Source of the DNA: Pectobacterium zantedeschiae
Lineage (GTDB): Bacteria > Pseudomonadota > Gammaproteobacteria > Enterobacterales > Enterobacteriaceae
Assembly: GCF_004137795.1 (NCBI RefSeq)
Contig: NZ_NWTM01000001.1
Coordinates: forward strand, 3,072,035-3,136,034
DNA length: 64,000 nt
Direction of reading: 5' to 3'
Positions 6,441 to 34,643 of this stretch are shown piece after piece. The notes below the pieces were generated by a model that was not told the DNA's origin, searched no databases, and saw only the letters and a list, made by a program, of their open reading frames with translations. Position numbers and translations under genes: made by a program. Position 1 is the stretch's first letter. Each line of letters opens with the position of its first letter.

Positions 6441-7694
6441 TCACTTCTTGAACTCATACGGCACCACATACTCATCCCGATTGGCATCCAGATAATCCGC
6501 CCACCATTGCAGCATCAGCCTGCGTTCATCCAGATGTTCCGCTTTGTGGATATAGGCAGCACGGACGCCGTTGCGTTCCTGATGACTCATCTGGCGCTCT
6601 ACCGCATCCCGTGACCACTGACCGGATTCTACCAGTGCGCTACAGGCCATGGTGCGAAACCCATGCCCGCAAATCTCTGTAGTAGTGTCATAGCCCATGG
6701 TTCGTAATGCGTTGTTGACGGTGTTTTCACTCATCGGTTTGGTTGGCCGACGATCGCCGGGGAAGATCAGTTCATGAGCGCCGCTGATAGCCTTAATCTC
6801 TTCCAGCAGCGCTAAAGCCTGTCGGGATAATGGCACCAGATGTTCAGAGCGCATCTTTGCACCGCGCTGTGAGTGCTTCACACCAGGGATGGCTTCACGT
6901 TCAGCCGGTATCGTCCACATAGCGCGTTTAAAATCGATTTCCGGCCAGCGGGCAAAACGTAGCTCGCTGGAACGGATAAAAACGCACAGCGTGAGTTTTA
7001 ACGCCAGTCTGGTTAACGCCCGCCCTTTGTGGCGTTCTATCCGTGCCAGAAAATCCTGCAGCTTGTTCAGCTTCAACGCTGGTCGATGGGTGGCTTTTGG
7101 TGCGGCTATCGCCCCGGAGAGGTCTTGCGCGGGGTTGCGCTCTATCAGATCGTTTTGCACCGCGTAGCGCATAATATCGGTGACGCGCTGGCGCAGCCGT
7201 GACGCCAAATCAAGATGACCGTTCTGTTCGACGACTTTCAGCGGCTCCAGAAGGTCTTTAGTTTTCAGGTCAGCAATATGACGATGCCCGATAGCAGGCA
7301 GGAGATTTCGTTCCATATCGCGCCATACCCGTCCGGCGTGTGTTTCTGACCAGCGGTTTTGGCTAATGTTCCGGTGCCAGTCCTGCGCGACCTTCGCAAA
7401 AGTATTCAACGCCTCTTGCGCCTGCTCTTTCTCTTCTTCACGCTTTTCCGTTGGGTGGATACCCTCCAACAGCAGCAATCGTATCTCATCACGCTTCTCT
7501 CTGGCCTTCGCCAGCGAGATCAGCGGATAGGCACCGAATGCAATCCGGCTTTCCTTACCTTCAAAGCGATATTTGAGATACCAGCGCTTAGAGCCGTTAG
7601 GACTCACCAAAAGATACAGGCCATGCGCGTCCGCGAGCTTATAGGCTTTCTCGCGGGGCTTGGCGGTACGGGCAACAACGTCGGTCAGCGCCAT
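6441..7694 (-). CDS. P4-family tyrosine integrase
   Basis: A 417-residue integrase. It has an N-terminal DUF4102-type arm-binding domain (LADAHGLYLLV, WYLKYRFEGKE), a central core-binding domain and a C-terminal catalytic domain with FIRSSELRFARW (Arg), GHGFRTMA (His/Arg), MSHQER (His) and a tyrosine in AYIHKAEHLDERR. Members insert at tRNA 3' ends. This one lies 220 bases from the 3' end of tRNA-Leu(CAA), with its gene start facing the tRNA, the usual P4 arrangement. It should catalyse integration and excision of the element at that tRNA. The inverted repeats at 7697-7749 overlap its promoter region. Confidence 0.95.
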   Translation of the reverse strand: MALTDVVARTAKPREKAYKLADAHGLYLLVSPNGSKRWYLKYRFEGKESRIAFGAYPLISLAKAREKRDEIRLLLLEGIHPTEKREEEKEQAQEALNTFAKVAQDWHRNISQNRWSETHAGRVWRDMERNLLPAIGHRHIADLKTKDLLEPLKVVEQNGHLDLASRLRQRVTDIMRYAVQNDLIERNPAQDLSGAIAAPKATHRPALKLNKLQDFLARIERHKGRALTRLALKLTLCVFIRSSELRFARWPEIDFKRAMWTIPAEREAIPGVKHSQRGAKMRSEHLVPLSRQALALLEEIKAISGAHELIFPGDRRPTKPMSENTVNNALRTMGYDTTTEICGHGFRTMACSALVESGQWSRDAVERQMSHQERNGVRAAYIHKAEHLDERRLMLQWWADYLDANRDEYVVPYEFKK

Positions 7695-30210: not shown

Positions 30211-30235
30211 GCACCATCATTGATCATCCCCTTCT

Positions 30236-30272
30236 CAAGACGCACCATTGTGGCTGCGTCTTGCTGATTTTC
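30236..30272 (+). terminator. Terminator after ridA
   Basis: CAAGACGCA and TGCGTCTTG form a perfect 9-bp stem around an 10-base loop, followed by CTGATTTT. Confidence 0.65.
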
Positions 30273-30431
30273 AGCGCCTTTATTTTCCCTCCTCAGTGCA
30301 AACCGGCCTTGCTACGCACCAATTAGAGGAAAAAACCGGGCACTATCCTGACTGCACCACACTTTTTCGAAAATGGCGCATTTTATGCATTGTCCTATTA
30401 TCGCTATTAAGCGTGATGCCTGGGGATGACA

Positions 30432-31871
30432 ATGATAAAAATGAAACTTCCATCTGCGCCTTATTACGACGAGATGCTCTCGTCGCAAGGCCAACAACGT
30501 CAACACTACAATTCCTATTGGCAATGGCTCCAACAAACCGACCAGCAGGCCATTAAACAGAAGAAGGAACAGGCAGAACTGCTGTTTCACCGCGTGGGTA
30601 TTACGTTTAACGTTTATGGCGAGGAAGGCGGTACCGAGCGCTTAATTCCCTTCGACAGCGTACCGCGCATTATTCCTGCCCACGAATGGCAATTGCTCGA
30701 TCGTGGTATCCGTCAGCGGGTACAGGCGCTGAACGCCTTTCTCTACGATATTTACCATCAGCAGCACATACTCAAGGCCGGTATTATCCCCAGTGAGCAG
30801 GTGTTGGCGAATGAGCAGTATCAACCCTGTATGCAAGGGGTGAATCTGCATAACAATATTTACGCCCACATCACTGGGATCGATATGGTGCGCAACAGCG
30901 ACGGCCATTATTACGTGCTGGAAGACAACCTGCGTACCCCATCCGGCGTTTCCTACATGCTGGAAAACCGCAAAATGATGATGCGGCTCTACCCGGATTT
31001 ATTTGCCAGCCAGCATATCGCGCCCGTTGAACGTTATCCCAGCTATCTGCTACAGACCCTGCGTGAAAGCACGCAGGTTGACGACCCTACCGTGGTCGTG
31101 ATGACGCCGGGCCGTTTCAACAGCGCCTACTTTGAACACAGCTTTCTGGCGCAGCAAATGGGCGTTGAACTGGTAGAAAGCGCAGACTTGTTCGTGAAAG
31201 AAGGCGCAGTCTATATGCGCACCACAGAAGGTCCGTGTCAGGTCGATGTGATTTATCGTCGCGTGGACGACGCCTTCCTCGATCCGCTAGCATTTCGCGC
31301 GGATTCCATGCTCGGCGTGCCTGGTTTGTTGTCCGTGTATCGTGCTGGCGGCGTCGTACTGGCGAATGCTGTCGGTACCGGTGTCGCCGACGATAAATCC
31401 ATCTATCCCTATGTGCCGGAAATGATCCGTTTCTACCTGTCTGAAGAACCAATCCTTCACAACATTCCAACCTGGCAGTGTCGTAACCCCAAGGACCTGC
31501 GCTATGTGCTCGATCATCTGGATAGCATGGTGGTGAAGGAAGTTCACGGAGCAGGCGGCTACGGTATGCTGGTCGGTCCGCGGGCAACGCGTCAGGAGAT
31601 CGAAACGTTCCGCCAGCGTTTACTTGCCCATCCGCACAACTATATCGGTCAGGAAACGTTAGCGCTGTCCACCTGCCCAACGTTTATCGACGATGGTTTG
31701 GCTCCCCGACATATCGATCTGCGCCCTTTCGCCTTGTCCGGTGAGGAAATCCGACTGGTTCCCGGCGGCCTGACGCGCGTCGCACTCACGGAAGGTTCTC
31801 TGGTCGTCAACTCTTCACAGGGCGGCGGTACCAAAGACACCTGGGTCATGGAGGAGGACGAATCATGCTAA
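30432..31871 (+). CDS. Circularly permuted ATP-grasp ligase of the Anbu cluster
   Basis: A 479-residue protein of the circularly permuted type 2 ATP-grasp family (formerly DUF404/DUF407). Signatures: YVLEDNLRTPSGVSYMLENR, VVKEVHGAGGYGMLVGP and HIDLRPFAL. ATP-grasp enzymes form amide or peptide bonds through acyl-phosphates, so it probably ligates an amino acid or peptide to an unknown acceptor. It is the first of four genes coding alpha-E, transglutaminase and Anbu proteins, with its stop overlapping the alpha-E start (ATGCTAA). I prefer ATG 30432, five bases past GGGGA, over the in-frame ATG at 30426. The biochemical product of such clusters is not established. Confidence 0.92.
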   Translation: MIKMKLPSAPYYDEMLSSQGQQRQHYNSYWQWLQQTDQQAIKQKKEQAELLFHRVGITFNVYGEEGGTERLIPFDSVPRIIPAHEWQLLDRGIRQRVQALNAFLYDIYHQQHILKAGIIPSEQVLANEQYQPCMQGVNLHNNIYAHITGIDMVRNSDGHYYVLEDNLRTPSGVSYMLENRKMMMRLYPDLFASQHIAPVERYPSYLLQTLRESTQVDDPTVVVMTPGRFNSAYFEHSFLAQQMGVELVESADLFVKEGAVYMRTTEGPCQVDVIYRRVDDAFLDPLAFRADSMLGVPGLLSVYRAGGVVLANAVGTGVADDKSIYPYVPEMIRFYLSEEPILHNIPTWQCRNPKDLRYVLDHLDSMVVKEVHGAGGYGMLVGPRATRQEIETFRQRLLAHPHNYIGQETLALSTCPTFIDDGLAPRHIDLRPFALSGEEIRLVPGGLTRVALTEGSLVVNSSQGGGTKDTWVMEEDESC

Positions 31872-32794
31872 GTCGTACTGCCAGTGAACTGTATTGGATG
31901 GCTCGCTATCTGGAACGGGCCGAGAGCCTCGCCCGCGTGCTGGATGTCACCTACAAACTCTCGATGATGCCGCGCCACAGCCAGCAGCAGCGCGATCTGG
32001 CTCTGCCCCTGAATCTGACTGCTACTCACGAGCTATTTCAGCAGCGCTACCCCCACTTTTCTATGAACAATCTGCTGAATTTCTTTGCGCTGGACAGCCA
32101 GAACCCAAGCAGCATCTACAACTGTATCGAAATGGCCTGGAATAATGCACACGCCGTGCGCGGCAGTCTTTCCTCCGAGGTCTGGGAGTGTATTAACGCC
32201 ACCCGCATCGACATTCGGAATCTGCGACATCAGGGTGTAGATAACATCGGGATTGATGCGTTCTTTGACTGGGTGAAAGAGCGTTCCCACCTGTTTCGCG
32301 GCGCGATGTTTGGCACGCTGCTGCGCAATGATGCTCAGTGCTTCATCCGTGTGGGCACGTTGATTGAACGCGCCTATGCGACCGCACAGTTACTGAATGT
32401 TAAACACCAACAGCTCAATAGCGACCCTGACCCCGTTCGCGAATACTATCGTCTGGATACCCTGCTGCGTGCCGTCAGCGCGCGCGAGGCCTACCACAGC
32501 ATCTATCGCCAACCAATTAGCCCGGAAACCGTCACCGAGCTGCTGGTTTTACGCGAGGACGTACCGCGTTCGCTGCACGCCTGCGTCGGCGATCTGGTCC
32601 TTCAGCTAGAGGCCATCGGCAGCCAACGTGCCAAAGTCCCGCATCGGCTCGCCCACCTGCTACACGTCGAGCTACGCTTCAGCACGCTGGACGACATTCT
32701 GGAGCAAGATCTACCCACCTATCTCAATACTTTCATAATTAAAATCAACGAACTGGCAGACAGCATTCGTCATACCTATCTGGAGGCGCTATGA
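31865..32794 (+). CDS. Alpha-E domain protein (former DUF403)
   Basis: A 309-residue mostly helical protein of the alpha-E family. It opens with LSRTASELYWMARYLERAES, the family hallmark, and has conserved AYHSIYRQ and RSLHACV stretches. Members occur beside circularly permuted ATP-grasp and transglutaminase genes. Their exact role is unknown; they are thought to assist the ligase. It overlaps both neighbours (ATGCTAA upstream, ATGA downstream), indicating strict translational coupling. Confidence 0.92.
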   Translation: MLSRTASELYWMARYLERAESLARVLDVTYKLSMMPRHSQQQRDLALPLNLTATHELFQQRYPHFSMNNLLNFFALDSQNPSSIYNCIEMAWNNAHAVRGSLSSEVWECINATRIDIRNLRHQGVDNIGIDAFFDWVKERSHLFRGAMFGTLLRNDAQCFIRVGTLIERAYATAQLLNVKHQQLNSDPDPVREYYRLDTLLRAVSAREAYHSIYRQPISPETVTELLVLREDVPRSLHACVGDLVLQLEAIGSQRAKVPHRLAHLLHVELRFSTLDDILEQDLPTYLNTFIIKINELADSIRHTYLEAL

Positions 32795-33612
32795 AACTCA
32801 CCATCAACCACCTCACTCACTACCGTTATGATGAAGAAGTAAAATTTAGCACCCAGTACCTGCGCCTGACGCCGCAAAACTCCGCACATCAGAGAATTCA
32901 GGAATGGAAACTGACGCTGCCCGCCTCAGCGGTTCAAACCACCGATGCGTATGGTAATGTGTTGCATGTGCTGACACTCGACCATCCGCATCACGACATC
33001 ACGATTCATGCGCAAGGCGTGGTTGATATCGGCGACGACGGCGAAAGAGAAGCGTTCGAAACGCAGGATGGTCTGTCGCCACTGGTTTTTTTACGCACGA
33101 CGCCGCTGACAGAAGCCGATGGCGAAATTCGAGCATTTGCACAACGTTATTATCGCTCGGATGCAGCGGAAGAAAGCCTGAATACGCTGATGGCGGAATT
33201 ACGGCTGAAAATGCCGTATACTCCCGGCGCGACGCAGGTGCAGGATACCGCAGCAGCGGCGTTTGCCATGCAGAAAGGCGTTTGTCAGGATCATACCCAT
33301 GTTTTCCTGGCCTGCTGCCGCAGCCTGAATATTCCAGCACGCTATGTCAGCGGCTACGTATACAGTCAGGACACCCACCATGTCGCCATGCACGCCTGGG
33401 CGGAAGTGTGGCTAAACGGATACTGGCAGGGATTCGATATTACCAACAGCACCCGGCAGCTCCATCAGCATCTGTGGCTAGCCGTGGGAATGGATTATAT
33501 GGATGCCTGCCCAGTACGCGGTACGCGGCTGGGAGGCGGATGTGAAGAGATGTTTTCAGAAGCTGAAGTCCGCTTGTTTGAACGGCAACAGCAGGTGCAG
33601 CAGCAACAGTAA
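32791..33612 (+). CDS. Transglutaminase-like cysteine protease
   Basis: A 273-residue protein. It has an N-terminal beta domain typical of bacterial transglutaminase-like proteins (LTHYRYDEEVKFSTQYLRLTP) and a papain-fold core with a complete triad: Cys in GVCQDHTHV, His in MHAWAEVWL and Asp in GFDITNS. There is no signal peptide, so it should act in the cytoplasm. It may hydrolyse or rearrange amide bonds made by the ATP-grasp partner. The start overlaps the alpha-E stop; Anbu follows after 23 bases. Confidence 0.93.
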   Translation: MKLTINHLTHYRYDEEVKFSTQYLRLTPQNSAHQRIQEWKLTLPASAVQTTDAYGNVLHVLTLDHPHHDITIHAQGVVDIGDDGEREAFETQDGLSPLVFLRTTPLTEADGEIRAFAQRYYRSDAAEESLNTLMAELRLKMPYTPGATQVQDTAAAAFAMQKGVCQDHTHVFLACCRSLNIPARYVSGYVYSQDTHHVAMHAWAEVWLNGYWQGFDITNSTRQLHQHLWLAVGMDYMDACPVRGTRLGGGCEEMFSEAEVRLFERQQQVQQQQ

Positions 33613-33635
33613 AATTTTTAACGAAAAGGTGCTTT

Positions 33636-34373
33636 ATGACGTACTGTGTCGCCATGTGTCTGTCTGACGGCCTGGTTTTTGCTTCCGATTCCCGCACTAA
33701 CGCGGGCGTCGATCATATTGCAACGTTCAAAAAACTCTATGTTTTTCAGCATGACGATGAACGTGTGTTAGTGATCCAATGCGCGGGCAACCTGGCGACA
33801 ACACAAAGCATCATTAGCCTACTCAGCGCCCGCATTGACGCACAGCATACGCCAAATCTCATGCAGGTTAACTCCATGTATGACGCTGCGATGCTACTCG
33901 GGGAAACCGTGCGGGAAGTGATTCACCGCGATAGCAGCGCGCAGCAGAGCGGCAGTAATACCAATTTCGGCTGCAACCTGCTGCTAGGCGGCCAGATTGG
34001 CGGTGAAACACATCGGCTGTTCCATATTTATCCTGAAGGCAACTTCATTGAAGCCACGCCGGACACTCCCTATTTCCAGATTGGCGAGAGTAAGTACGGT
34101 AAGCCGATCATCGATCGTGTGTTGACGATGGATACTCCGTTGGAGCAAGCCATGTGCTGTGCGCTGATTTCTATCGACTCCACTCTGCGCAGCAACCTGT
34201 CGGTTGGTCTGCCGCTGGACGTGATGATTTATCGCACCGGTAGTTTTGACAGCGGTGAGCAGCAGCGCGTTACCGAAAACAACGCCTATTTCACCACGAT
34301 CCGTAAAGCCTGGTCGGAGGGGCTAGTGAATATCTTCCGCCAGCTTCCCCCCTTCCCTGATAGCCAAGCGTAA
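33636..34373 (+). CDS. Anbu, proteasome-like N-terminal nucleophile peptidase
   Basis: A 245-residue member of the Anbu (ancestral beta subunit) branch of the proteasome/HslV superfamily. It starts MTYCVAMCLSDGLVFASDSRT. Removal of the initiator Met would expose Thr2 as the catalytic nucleophile, and SDSRTNAG and a lysine in FKKLYVF match the active-site surroundings. Anbu proteins form open helical or ring assemblies without a known ATPase. No hslU- or clpX-like gene is adjacent, so the partner and substrate remain unknown. It ends the ATP-grasp/alpha-E/transglutaminase cluster; linkage of these four families has been described in other bacteria. Confidence 0.92.
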   Translation: MTYCVAMCLSDGLVFASDSRTNAGVDHIATFKKLYVFQHDDERVLVIQCAGNLATTQSIISLLSARIDAQHTPNLMQVNSMYDAAMLLGETVREVIHRDSSAQQSGSNTNFGCNLLLGGQIGGETHRLFHIYPEGNFIEATPDTPYFQIGESKYGKPIIDRVLTMDTPLEQAMCCALISIDSTLRSNLSVGLPLDVMIYRTGSFDSGEQQRVTENNAYFTTIRKAWSEGLVNIFRQLPPFPDSQA

Positions 34374-34643
34374 CTCATCTCCTCATCGGCATTCTGTAGT
34401 CACCCTCACGCTTTACTACGAATGCCGAAAAACGCCATCTGGCATTTCAGATATTTCTGTACATTAACTCTCGCAGCCCATAAAAAAACTCCCGATAAGC
34501 CGCCAGACCACGCACCGTAAGCCTTCATGGACCTCACCCCCAATCTGATTGAATTTTGTTCAAGTTCGATTTATCTACTAGGTAAGAATTTCTTTGCTCT
34601 ACATCAATTTTGCAGCGATAAAAGCGCAAACACTCCTACGCAA

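Follow-up and report, generated by a model that had tools for sequence, protein, structure and literature searches.

Earlier works on the Anbu operon reportedly include those of Iyer in 2009 and of Valas and Bourne in 2008. In Yersinia bercovieri and Pseudomonas, Anbu, a proteasome-like N-terminal nucleophile (Ntn) hydrolase, is encoded together with an ATP-grasp protein, an Alpha-E protein, and a transglutaminase-like enzyme, and the operon is described without an ATPase partner (PMC5666114, PMC6376114). Epoxomicin was found bound at Thr1 of Anbu (PMC5666114), and peptides offered to purified Anbu particles were left uncut (PMC6376114, PMC5666114). The accessible text of these two papers names nitrogen limitation and makes no mention of a sigma54 promoter. 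Here, we analyze a stretch of 64,000 nucleotides from Pectobacterium zantedeschiae (contig NZ_NWTM01000001.1; hereafter the window), which sits within a 5.06 Mb genome of 13 contigs and carries the same four genes, in the same order and with the same Thr/Asp/Lys residues in Anbu, on the plus strand at positions 30432-34373 (Table 1). The window operon is a member of the known Anbu operon, for which the cluster, the structures, and ideas of tagging and turnover have already been published, and it shows no difference in kind from the Yersinia and Pseudomonas examples.

Our best reading, to which we assign a probability of roughly 0.46, is that the operon encodes a module for amide ligation and cleavage during nitrogen starvation. 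The four genes would form one unit, switched mainly by a sigma54-type promoter and used when nitrogen is short. The ATP-grasp and Alpha-E proteins would act as one ligase of the glutathione synthetase/glutathionylspermidine synthetase fold class, using ATP to activate a carboxylate, most likely that of a short peptide or a protein terminus, before ligating it with an amine. Anbu, a threonine Ntn-hydrolase for which no unfoldase is known, and the transglutaminase-like enzyme would go on to cut, trim, or transfer amide bonds in the ligase product or in proteins bearing it, with the recovery of amino-acid nitrogen as the outcome. Within this scheme, we infer the substrate class, the direction of the reactions, and the action of Anbu on the ligase product. 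The support found here is from sequence and consists of the identities of the proteins, their intact active sites, the overlapping frames, a conserved promoter element, the block-wise gain and loss of the genes, and the dependence of Anbu on Alpha-E.

The identities that a first-pass annotation of this DNA had given to the four genes, at the positions where it had placed them, are unambiguous by Pfam and PDB matches. The Pfam E-values are 4e-166 for CP_ATPgrasp_2, 1.1e-86 for Alpha-E, 4.4e-22 for Bact_transglu_N, 2e-21 for Transglut_core, and 2.6e-9 for Proteasome; the ATP-grasp protein scores 553 bits against its family profile (curated cut-off 32) and the Alpha-E protein 291.6 bits against PF04168 (cut-off 20.8), while none of the NCBIfam models exceeded its cut-off for the operon proteins. 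Sequence searches of the PDB matched the ATP-grasp protein to 3n6x (E=3e-211), the transglutaminase-like protein to 3isr (E=3.6e-13), and Anbu most closely to 5nyw of Y. bercovieri (E=9e-111), followed by 5lox of P. aeruginosa (5.3e-90) and also 5loy. The best match of Anbu to a 20S subunit reached just 5.5e-5, which places it nearer to the solved Anbu proteins than to HslV/20S. Of 80 named loci, a set chosen as most similar to the window Anbu and hence biased towards its relatives, 38 show all four genes detected and collinear with those of the window (L numbers below denote loci of this and other sets); this shared order, together with the E-values, rules out a chance assembly. The genes overlap or nearly so, as that annotation had noted: the ATP-grasp and Alpha-E frames share 7 bp (ATGCTAA), the Alpha-E and transglutaminase frames share 4 bp (ATGA), and 23 bp lie between the transglutaminase and Anbu genes, an arrangement that suggests one transcript for all four.

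The active sites, which the annotation had described as complete for Anbu (including Thr2) and the transglutaminase-like enzyme, are intact. Thr2, Asp18, and Lys33 of Anbu (Thr1, Asp17, and Lys32 once Met is removed) are invariant in 90 of 90 aligned sequences, and Thr2 is predicted to be exposed as the N-terminal nucleophile after removal of the initiator Met. The Cys165/His201/Asp216 triad of the transglutaminase-like enzyme, which could be either a protease or a transferase, is invariant in 63/63 sequences, as are ten checked positions of Alpha-E in 62/62, including E17 and R18 of the ER motif. For the ATP-grasp protein, D151, R276, R277, D279, and K369 are invariant in 70/70 sequences; E164 and N166, which we take to be the Mg-binding Glu/Asn pair, are kept in the window protein and in 67/70, and the fused paralogue of L041, L072, and L087 accounts for the other three. 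Two ATP-grasp and two transglutaminase rows had been removed from the alignments, since the match ran past a stop. A loss of catalytic residues in relatives, which the annotation had named as evidence that would count against its proposal, is not seen in the aligned sequences, even though the tblastn identities of these relatives fall as low as ∼40% (Anbu), 33% (ATP-grasp), 26% (Alpha-E), and 22% (transglutaminase-like protein). At the S1-pocket position, the window Anbu carries Cys49 (Thr48 in P. aeruginosa), and Cys is found there in 2 of the 90 aligned sequences. As an Anbu protein, it would be expected to assemble into an open lock-washer of 12-14 subunits.

The window ATP-grasp protein is predicted from its family to form amide bonds; for its Yersinia homolog, phosphate release is the only activity reported in the accessible text (PMC6376114). 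Natural fusions of ATP-grasp and Alpha-E were found as 14 fused open reading frames (ORFs), 12 of them distinct (L155:2669-5074, L144:3426-5963, L041:12170-14680, L087:12864-15392, and eight more). A model of one 802-aa fusion reached a predicted local distance difference test score (pLDDT) of 89.7 and a predicted template modeling score (pTM) of 0.89, and Foldseek matched it to 3n6x, to glutathione and homoglutathione synthetases, to YjfC, to glutathionylspermidine synthetase, and to trypanothione synthetase. In enzymes of the glutathione/glutathionylspermidine synthetase fold class, a small peptide is linked through its carboxylate to an amine. The fusions suggest that ATP-grasp and Alpha-E may act as one ligase. 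Alpha-E alone was modeled by AlphaFold2 with a mean pLDDT of 92.1; compared with PDB folds, this model gave a best match of E=0.51 and thus no recognizable fold. In 12/12 fused paralogues, both the Glu and the Asn of the putative Mg site have been replaced (by A/G-D-R in most). These fused paralogues are candidate pseudo-ATP-grasps, and several of the loci also carry an intact copy beside the fusion.

The placement of the fused model in this fold class also favors the main rival explanation, in which the ligase makes a peptide-amine conjugate, similar to glutathionylspermidine, that stores or carries nitrogen; the transglutaminase-like enzyme and Anbu would be its amidases, and no protein would be tagged. 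The glutathionylspermidine enzyme of E. coli is likewise a synthetase/amidase, no gene for a small protein tag adjoins the operon, and proteasome peptides were not cut by Anbu (PMC6376114). We consider this route possible though unlikely: a particle of 12-14 Anbu subunits with many active sites (PMC6376114) seems more than a small amidase needs, and Anbu binds epoxomicin and MG132 in the manner of a protease (PMC5666114).

A sigma54-type -24/-12 element precedes the operon. The scan used a sigma54 consensus matrix that was not fitted to these data, run over the 350 bp before the ATP-grasp start, and scored 75 of 93 sequences (the 80 named loci, 12 genus loci, and the window; the window and L092 are one sequence); the 18 left out were 16 named loci without an ATP-grasp match and two that offered insufficient usable sequence at or before the start. 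A score of at least 13 was reached at 64/75 operon starts, vs 18 of 916 regions upstream of other called ORFs from these loci and 3/75 reverse strands, and 34 of 43 lineages (labeled by record title) have the element. Within the genus, the 21 bp AATGGCGCATTTTATGCATTG around the element are identical in 11 of the 12 operon-bearing genomes, that of the window included, and differ by one mismatch in the twelfth, while the flanks have diverged; the best match to these 21 bp in 13 regions that lack the operon has 6-8 mismatches. NtrC-like palindromes matching at least 11 of 14 positions occur in 34/75 loci vs 1.5 expected by shuffling. A sigma70 scan was uninformative (2 sites found vs 4.2 expected). 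Sigma54 and NtrC are putative regulators of the operon in the window genome. In L055, L062, and L087, the Anbu and ATP-grasp genes diverge, and the DNA that separates them carries strong sigma54-like sites on both strands.

Published data from relatives point to nitrogen control. In P. putida, PP_2686-2688 rose 11-15 fold in the nitrogen-limited wild type (PMC7801951), PP2685-2687 rose 6.6-11.1 fold under nitrogen limitation (PMC3325844), and PP_2685 and PP_2688 showed log2 fold changes (log2FC) of 4.4 and 4.0 on nitrate (PMC8050072). The promoter of PP_2688, at the start of the operon, was induced 3.7-fold upon nitrogen depletion (PMC8050072), which fits a switch at the operon start. An ntrC mutant of B. 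cenocepacia showed log2FC values of -6.0 to -9.4 for I35_5080-5083, which are listed as common sigma54/NtrC targets (PMC5491218). COG3484 appears in predicted sigma54 regulons (PMC12316311), which partly anticipates the promoter idea. Neither the sigma54-type promoter nor the link to nitrogen limitation was part of the first-pass annotation. The conserved element, now seen in enterobacteria too, and the published nitrogen data tell when to look for the function of Anbu.

Anbu depends on the presence of Alpha-E in a one-sided manner: it is rarely found without Alpha-E, and Alpha-E is often found without Anbu. In a class sample of 369 genomes, 86 have Anbu, 105 have Alpha-E, and 80 have both, leaving 25 with Alpha-E and no Anbu; in a phylum sample of 249 genomes, partly the same ones, the corresponding counts are 101, 146, 99, and 47. 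Fisher p values for the co-occurrence are 8.7e-51 (class) and 7.9e-30 (phylum), with shared ancestry ignored. A standalone Alpha-E gene lies within 7 kb of Anbu in 57/84 genomes of the class sample and elsewhere apart from it (a count that excludes G255 and G402, whose Anbu is partial, and to which G590 would be added if the fused form were counted). In the phylum sample, Alpha-E is linked to Anbu at the same distance in at least 85/99 genomes, a lower bound from using one Alpha-E position per genome. G586 (L166), one of the six Anbu genomes of the class sample without an Alpha-E match, has ATP-grasp and transglutaminase genes and a gap that fits a short Alpha-E. The scarcity of Anbu without Alpha-E or ATP-grasp points to the ligase product as the thing to look for.

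These counts bear on a rival view, in which the Anbu particle degrades proteins in general and is of use when nitrogen is scarce, as argued by Fuchs et al., and the other three genes are neighbors for regulation only. Protein degradation is favored over peptide synthesis for Anbu in PMC5666114, where inhibitor binding and a proteasome-like active site are reported; some genomes hold Anbu without Alpha-E or ATP-grasp, others have Anbu distant from Alpha-E, and PP_2685 has constitutive promoter activity of its own (PMC8050072). Nevertheless, the presence of Alpha-E in 99/101 and 80/86 Anbu genomes, the all-or-none operon within the genus, and the published failure to detect peptidase activity, with no ATPase partner encoded by the operon (PMC6376114), make this view unlikely to our minds.

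Within the genus, 12 of 25 genomes, that of the window included, have ATP-grasp with Alpha-E behind it, Anbu, and transglutaminase at the site between the ridA-like and nrdD-like genes. The other 13 have a ∼0.4 kb ridA-nrdD gap that holds none of the four genes, and ATP-grasp is without a match in the rest of these genomes as well. Homology to the window DNA restarts at 34554 in the best-matching empty-site genome and up to ∼35 bp further on in others. On a tree of the 1.8 kb from nrdD onwards, presence and absence require six changes, at least four of them forced by well-supported branches; this tree represents one locus, at which recombination is possible. Judged by these alignments, the operon is gained or lost as one block within the genus, and sister species with clean empty sites provide natural controls. 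Anbu is found in 10/197 genomes of the order, and a Klebsiella pneumoniae water isolate carries the whole operon on a plasmid typed as conjugative (L244 2810-6747, NZ_CP084831.1), with a sigma54-like site of score 13.8 upstream. This patchiness, the repeated gain and loss, and the plasmid copy would suit a mobile accessory block of individually dispensable genes with no joint pathway. Such a block is very improbable given the invariant active-site positions and overlapping frames, and given the conserved promoter element and strong co-occurrence of Anbu with Alpha-E.

Several observations weigh against a nitrogen-starvation ligation and cleavage module. For the Yersinia proteins, none of the peptides tried revealed a peptidase activity of Anbu, the operon proteins did not assemble into a stable complex, and the ATP-grasp protein was stimulated neither by Glu or Gln nor by Anbu (PMC6376114). 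The fused ORFs behind the pairing of ATP-grasp with Alpha-E lack the Glu/Asn pair, which the window ATP-grasp and its separate relatives keep; this loss marks the fusions as paralogues, perhaps non-catalytic, that bear on the window pair by homology alone. No Alpha-E match accompanies Anbu in G505 and G783, which are 100% complete and belong to the same genus, or in G225 (L074, Acinetobacter sp. A47). G578 (92% complete) and G303 (78%) likewise have Anbu with neither Alpha-E nor ATP-grasp detected, as do G255 and G402, whose Anbu is partial, and a search for the PF14403 ATP-grasp found it in 0/7 of these genomes. The Anbu proteins of G505 and G225 retain Thr/Asp/Lys.

The nitrogen switch meets evidence of the same kind. 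In the 64 kb window taken alone, sigma54-type scores are not above chance (3 sites found vs 3.9 expected); such scores are not rare over this length, and the case for the promoter therefore rests on place and conservation. The best NtrC-like palindrome of the window matches 10 of 14 positions and is no clear site. The sigma54-type element is found in just 7/39 linked loci of the class sample, at 3/24 ATP-grasp starts in 20 Anbu-less loci, at 0/20 Anbu starts (which include two partial Anbu genes and L166, where ATP-grasp adjoins), and at 0/9 named lone Anbu genes; these tests covered 20 of the 25 genomes with Alpha-E and no Anbu and 40 of the 57 linked genomes of the class sample. An rpoN mutant of P. 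putida still raised expression of PP_2686-2688 by 14-20 fold, at odds with strict sigma54 dependence there; the urt genes, assigned to NtrB/NtrC, were likewise induced in that mutant (PMC7801951), so the rpoN strain or the set-up itself is also in question. PP_2685, which encodes Anbu, rose just 1.1 fold in the wild type (PMC7801951), and the region before it drives constitutive, nitrogen-independent expression (PMC8050072), which means that Anbu can be made outside nitrogen limitation. By its distribution, the element is a feature of the operon lineage that includes the window and not of every relative; nitrogen control of all Alpha-E/ATP-grasp or Anbu genes was accordingly rejected, the element being mostly missing outside that lineage.

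Table 1. Features of the Anbu operon and its borders, in window positions.
Feature	Position	Strand	Details
All-or-none block between ridA-like and nrdD-like genes	30211..34553		gap instead in 13/25 genus genomes
Hairpin AAGACGCA..TGCGTCTT, putative terminator for the ridA-like gene upstream	30237..30262	+	from sequence
Sigma54-type -24/-12 element TGGCGCATTTTATGCA	30374..30389	+	score 13.2; 58 bp upstream of ATG at 30432
Alternative in-frame ATG of the ATP-grasp gene	30426	+	
ATP-grasp, circularly permuted, predicted amide-forming ligase	30432..31871	+	479 aa; Pfam PF14403/PF04174; PDB 3n6x
Alpha-E protein, predicted ATP-grasp partner	31865..32794	+	309 aa; Pfam PF04168
Transglutaminase-like cysteine enzyme (hydrolase or transferase)	32791..33612	+	273 aa; PF08379 + PF01841; triad C165/H201/D216
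Anbu, Ntn-hydrolase	33636..34373	+	245 aa including Met1; PF00227; Thr2 nucleophile, Asp18, Lys33

By Pfam scan, the operon is flanked upstream by carbamoyltransferase/PyrI-like and ridA-like genes and downstream by nrdD-like and nrdG-like genes. No AAA+ unfoldase gene was found among the scanned neighbors (carbamoyltransferase-, PyrI-, ridA-, nrdD-, and nrdG-like, and a NAD-binding protein), in keeping with the first-pass annotation. At the place of the hairpin, aligned empty-site genomes have a GC-rich inverted repeat followed by T, and the hairpin probably separates the ridA-like gene from the operon. The sequence CGCACCATTGTGGCTGC was rejected as an NtrC site in the window, as it falls inside this hairpin downstream of the ridA-like gene. 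An operon that includes the upstream ridA-like gene, a possibility prompted by P. putida PP2689, was unsupported: genomes without the operon retain the ridA-like gene, which is followed by a hairpin of its own.

Other arrangements among the named loci include the order ATP-grasp/Alpha-E/Anbu/transglutaminase, divergent pairs, and Anbu alone within 8 kb. Nine Acinetobacter loci have ATP-grasp and no Alpha-E match by tblastn; in one of these, L042, an Alpha-E cluster gene of 200 aa (vs 309) with a weak score occupies the site (6600-7202), and the eight further loci remain without a tblastn match. In Acinetobacter sp. A47 (L074 7974-8735), Anbu stands alone between the neighbors that flank the operon in L042, and the three other genes are missing there. 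L053, L086, and L179 have two Anbu genes each, and L177 and L178, from two species of one genus, match only the N-terminal part of Anbu (∼125-170 residues) and have no ATP-grasp match. A recurrent extra neighbor, a protein of ∼1109 aa, is found in 9/80 loci, in eight of which the transglutaminase query matches directly after Anbu. Setting aside this protein and ORFs that were antisense or restricted to one lineage, the 80 loci show no conserved additional gene of at least 80 aa beside the operon; antisense ORFs in GC-rich loci had produced false conserved neighbors, which were removed by eye. Eight small ORFs at the two ends of the operon gave a best match of E=0.23 across 12 relatives. No small protein tag gene was found adjoining the operon, and a tag encoded elsewhere was not searched for. 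Among 20,395 E. coli records, none gave a megablast match to the Klebsiella operon, a search able to detect DNA of roughly 85% identity or more.

The first-pass annotation had described a self-contained make-and-break system, perhaps for the synthesis and removal of a tag. The idea of making and breaking bonds is partly supported, whereas self-containment is not borne out: Alpha-E lies apart from Anbu in part of both samples, and Anbu persists in a few genomes where neither Alpha-E nor ATP-grasp was detected. The tag fared no better, in that the conserved small substrate ORF to be looked for was not found beside the operon. Independent variation of the genes, which the annotation would have counted against itself, is not seen within the genus, where the operon genes are all present or all absent, and is seen in part in the wider samples. 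The assay that it proposed for ATP hydrolysis has been done in part, on the Yersinia protein, with phosphate release and no stimulation by Glu, Gln, or Anbu (PMC6376114). Its statements that the gene association is known in other bacteria and that the chemistry and substrates are not established agree with the literature. Our literature searches, largely confined to papers outside subscription, found no publication that establishes the operon substrate and none that joins Pectobacterium with "proteasome-type protease"; PMC10274813 and PMC12096838 proved to have no bearing on the operon. What the present analysis adds is a probable timing of action, the near-constant company that Anbu keeps with the ligase genes, and natural empty-site controls.

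Among the relatives with expression data, PP_2685-PP_2688 of P. putida include related ATP-grasp, Alpha-E, and transglutaminase genes whose induction in nitrogen limitation persists in the rpoN mutant (PMC7801951), and I35_5080-5083 of B. cenocepacia are related genes that depend on NtrC and sigma54, in a cluster that has a second, large transglutaminase protein and for which the accessible text lists no Anbu (PMC5491218). RimK/RimB and the rlo operon of P. aeruginosa likewise bring an ATP-grasp protein, a transglutaminase-related protein, and a protease into one unit; in the rlo operon, however, the protease is a retropepsin and not Anbu, the transglutaminase is called inactive, and Alpha-E is not named in the text available (PMC12239564). 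The window operon is known here from its genes, and the expression data come from the P. putida and B. cenocepacia relatives.

Two further systems share parts of the proposed chemistry. The actinobacterial Pup-proteasome combines an amide ligase with a proteasome-type Ntn-hydrolase and is linked to nitrogen starvation. A recycling route of this type without a protein tag or an unfoldase, in which the ligase would attach an amino acid or amine as a mark to proteins or peptides, the transglutaminase-like enzyme and an open Anbu ring would remove or process the marked parts so that nitrogen is recovered, and the pseudo-ATP-grasp of those loci that have the fused paralogue would be a regulatory partner, seems to us rather improbable. 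The Pup ligase has a glutamine-synthetase fold, whereas the window has an ATP-grasp, no AAA ATPase among the scanned neighbors, and no small tag protein adjoining. Glutathionylspermidine synthetase/amidase and the eukaryotic-type glutathione synthetase share the ATP-grasp fold, as seen with the fused-paralogue model, at ∼9-14% identity. In the E. coli glutathionylspermidine enzyme, the ligase is paired with an amidase; in the window operon, the corresponding activities would be encoded by separate genes, with Alpha-E and Anbu added.

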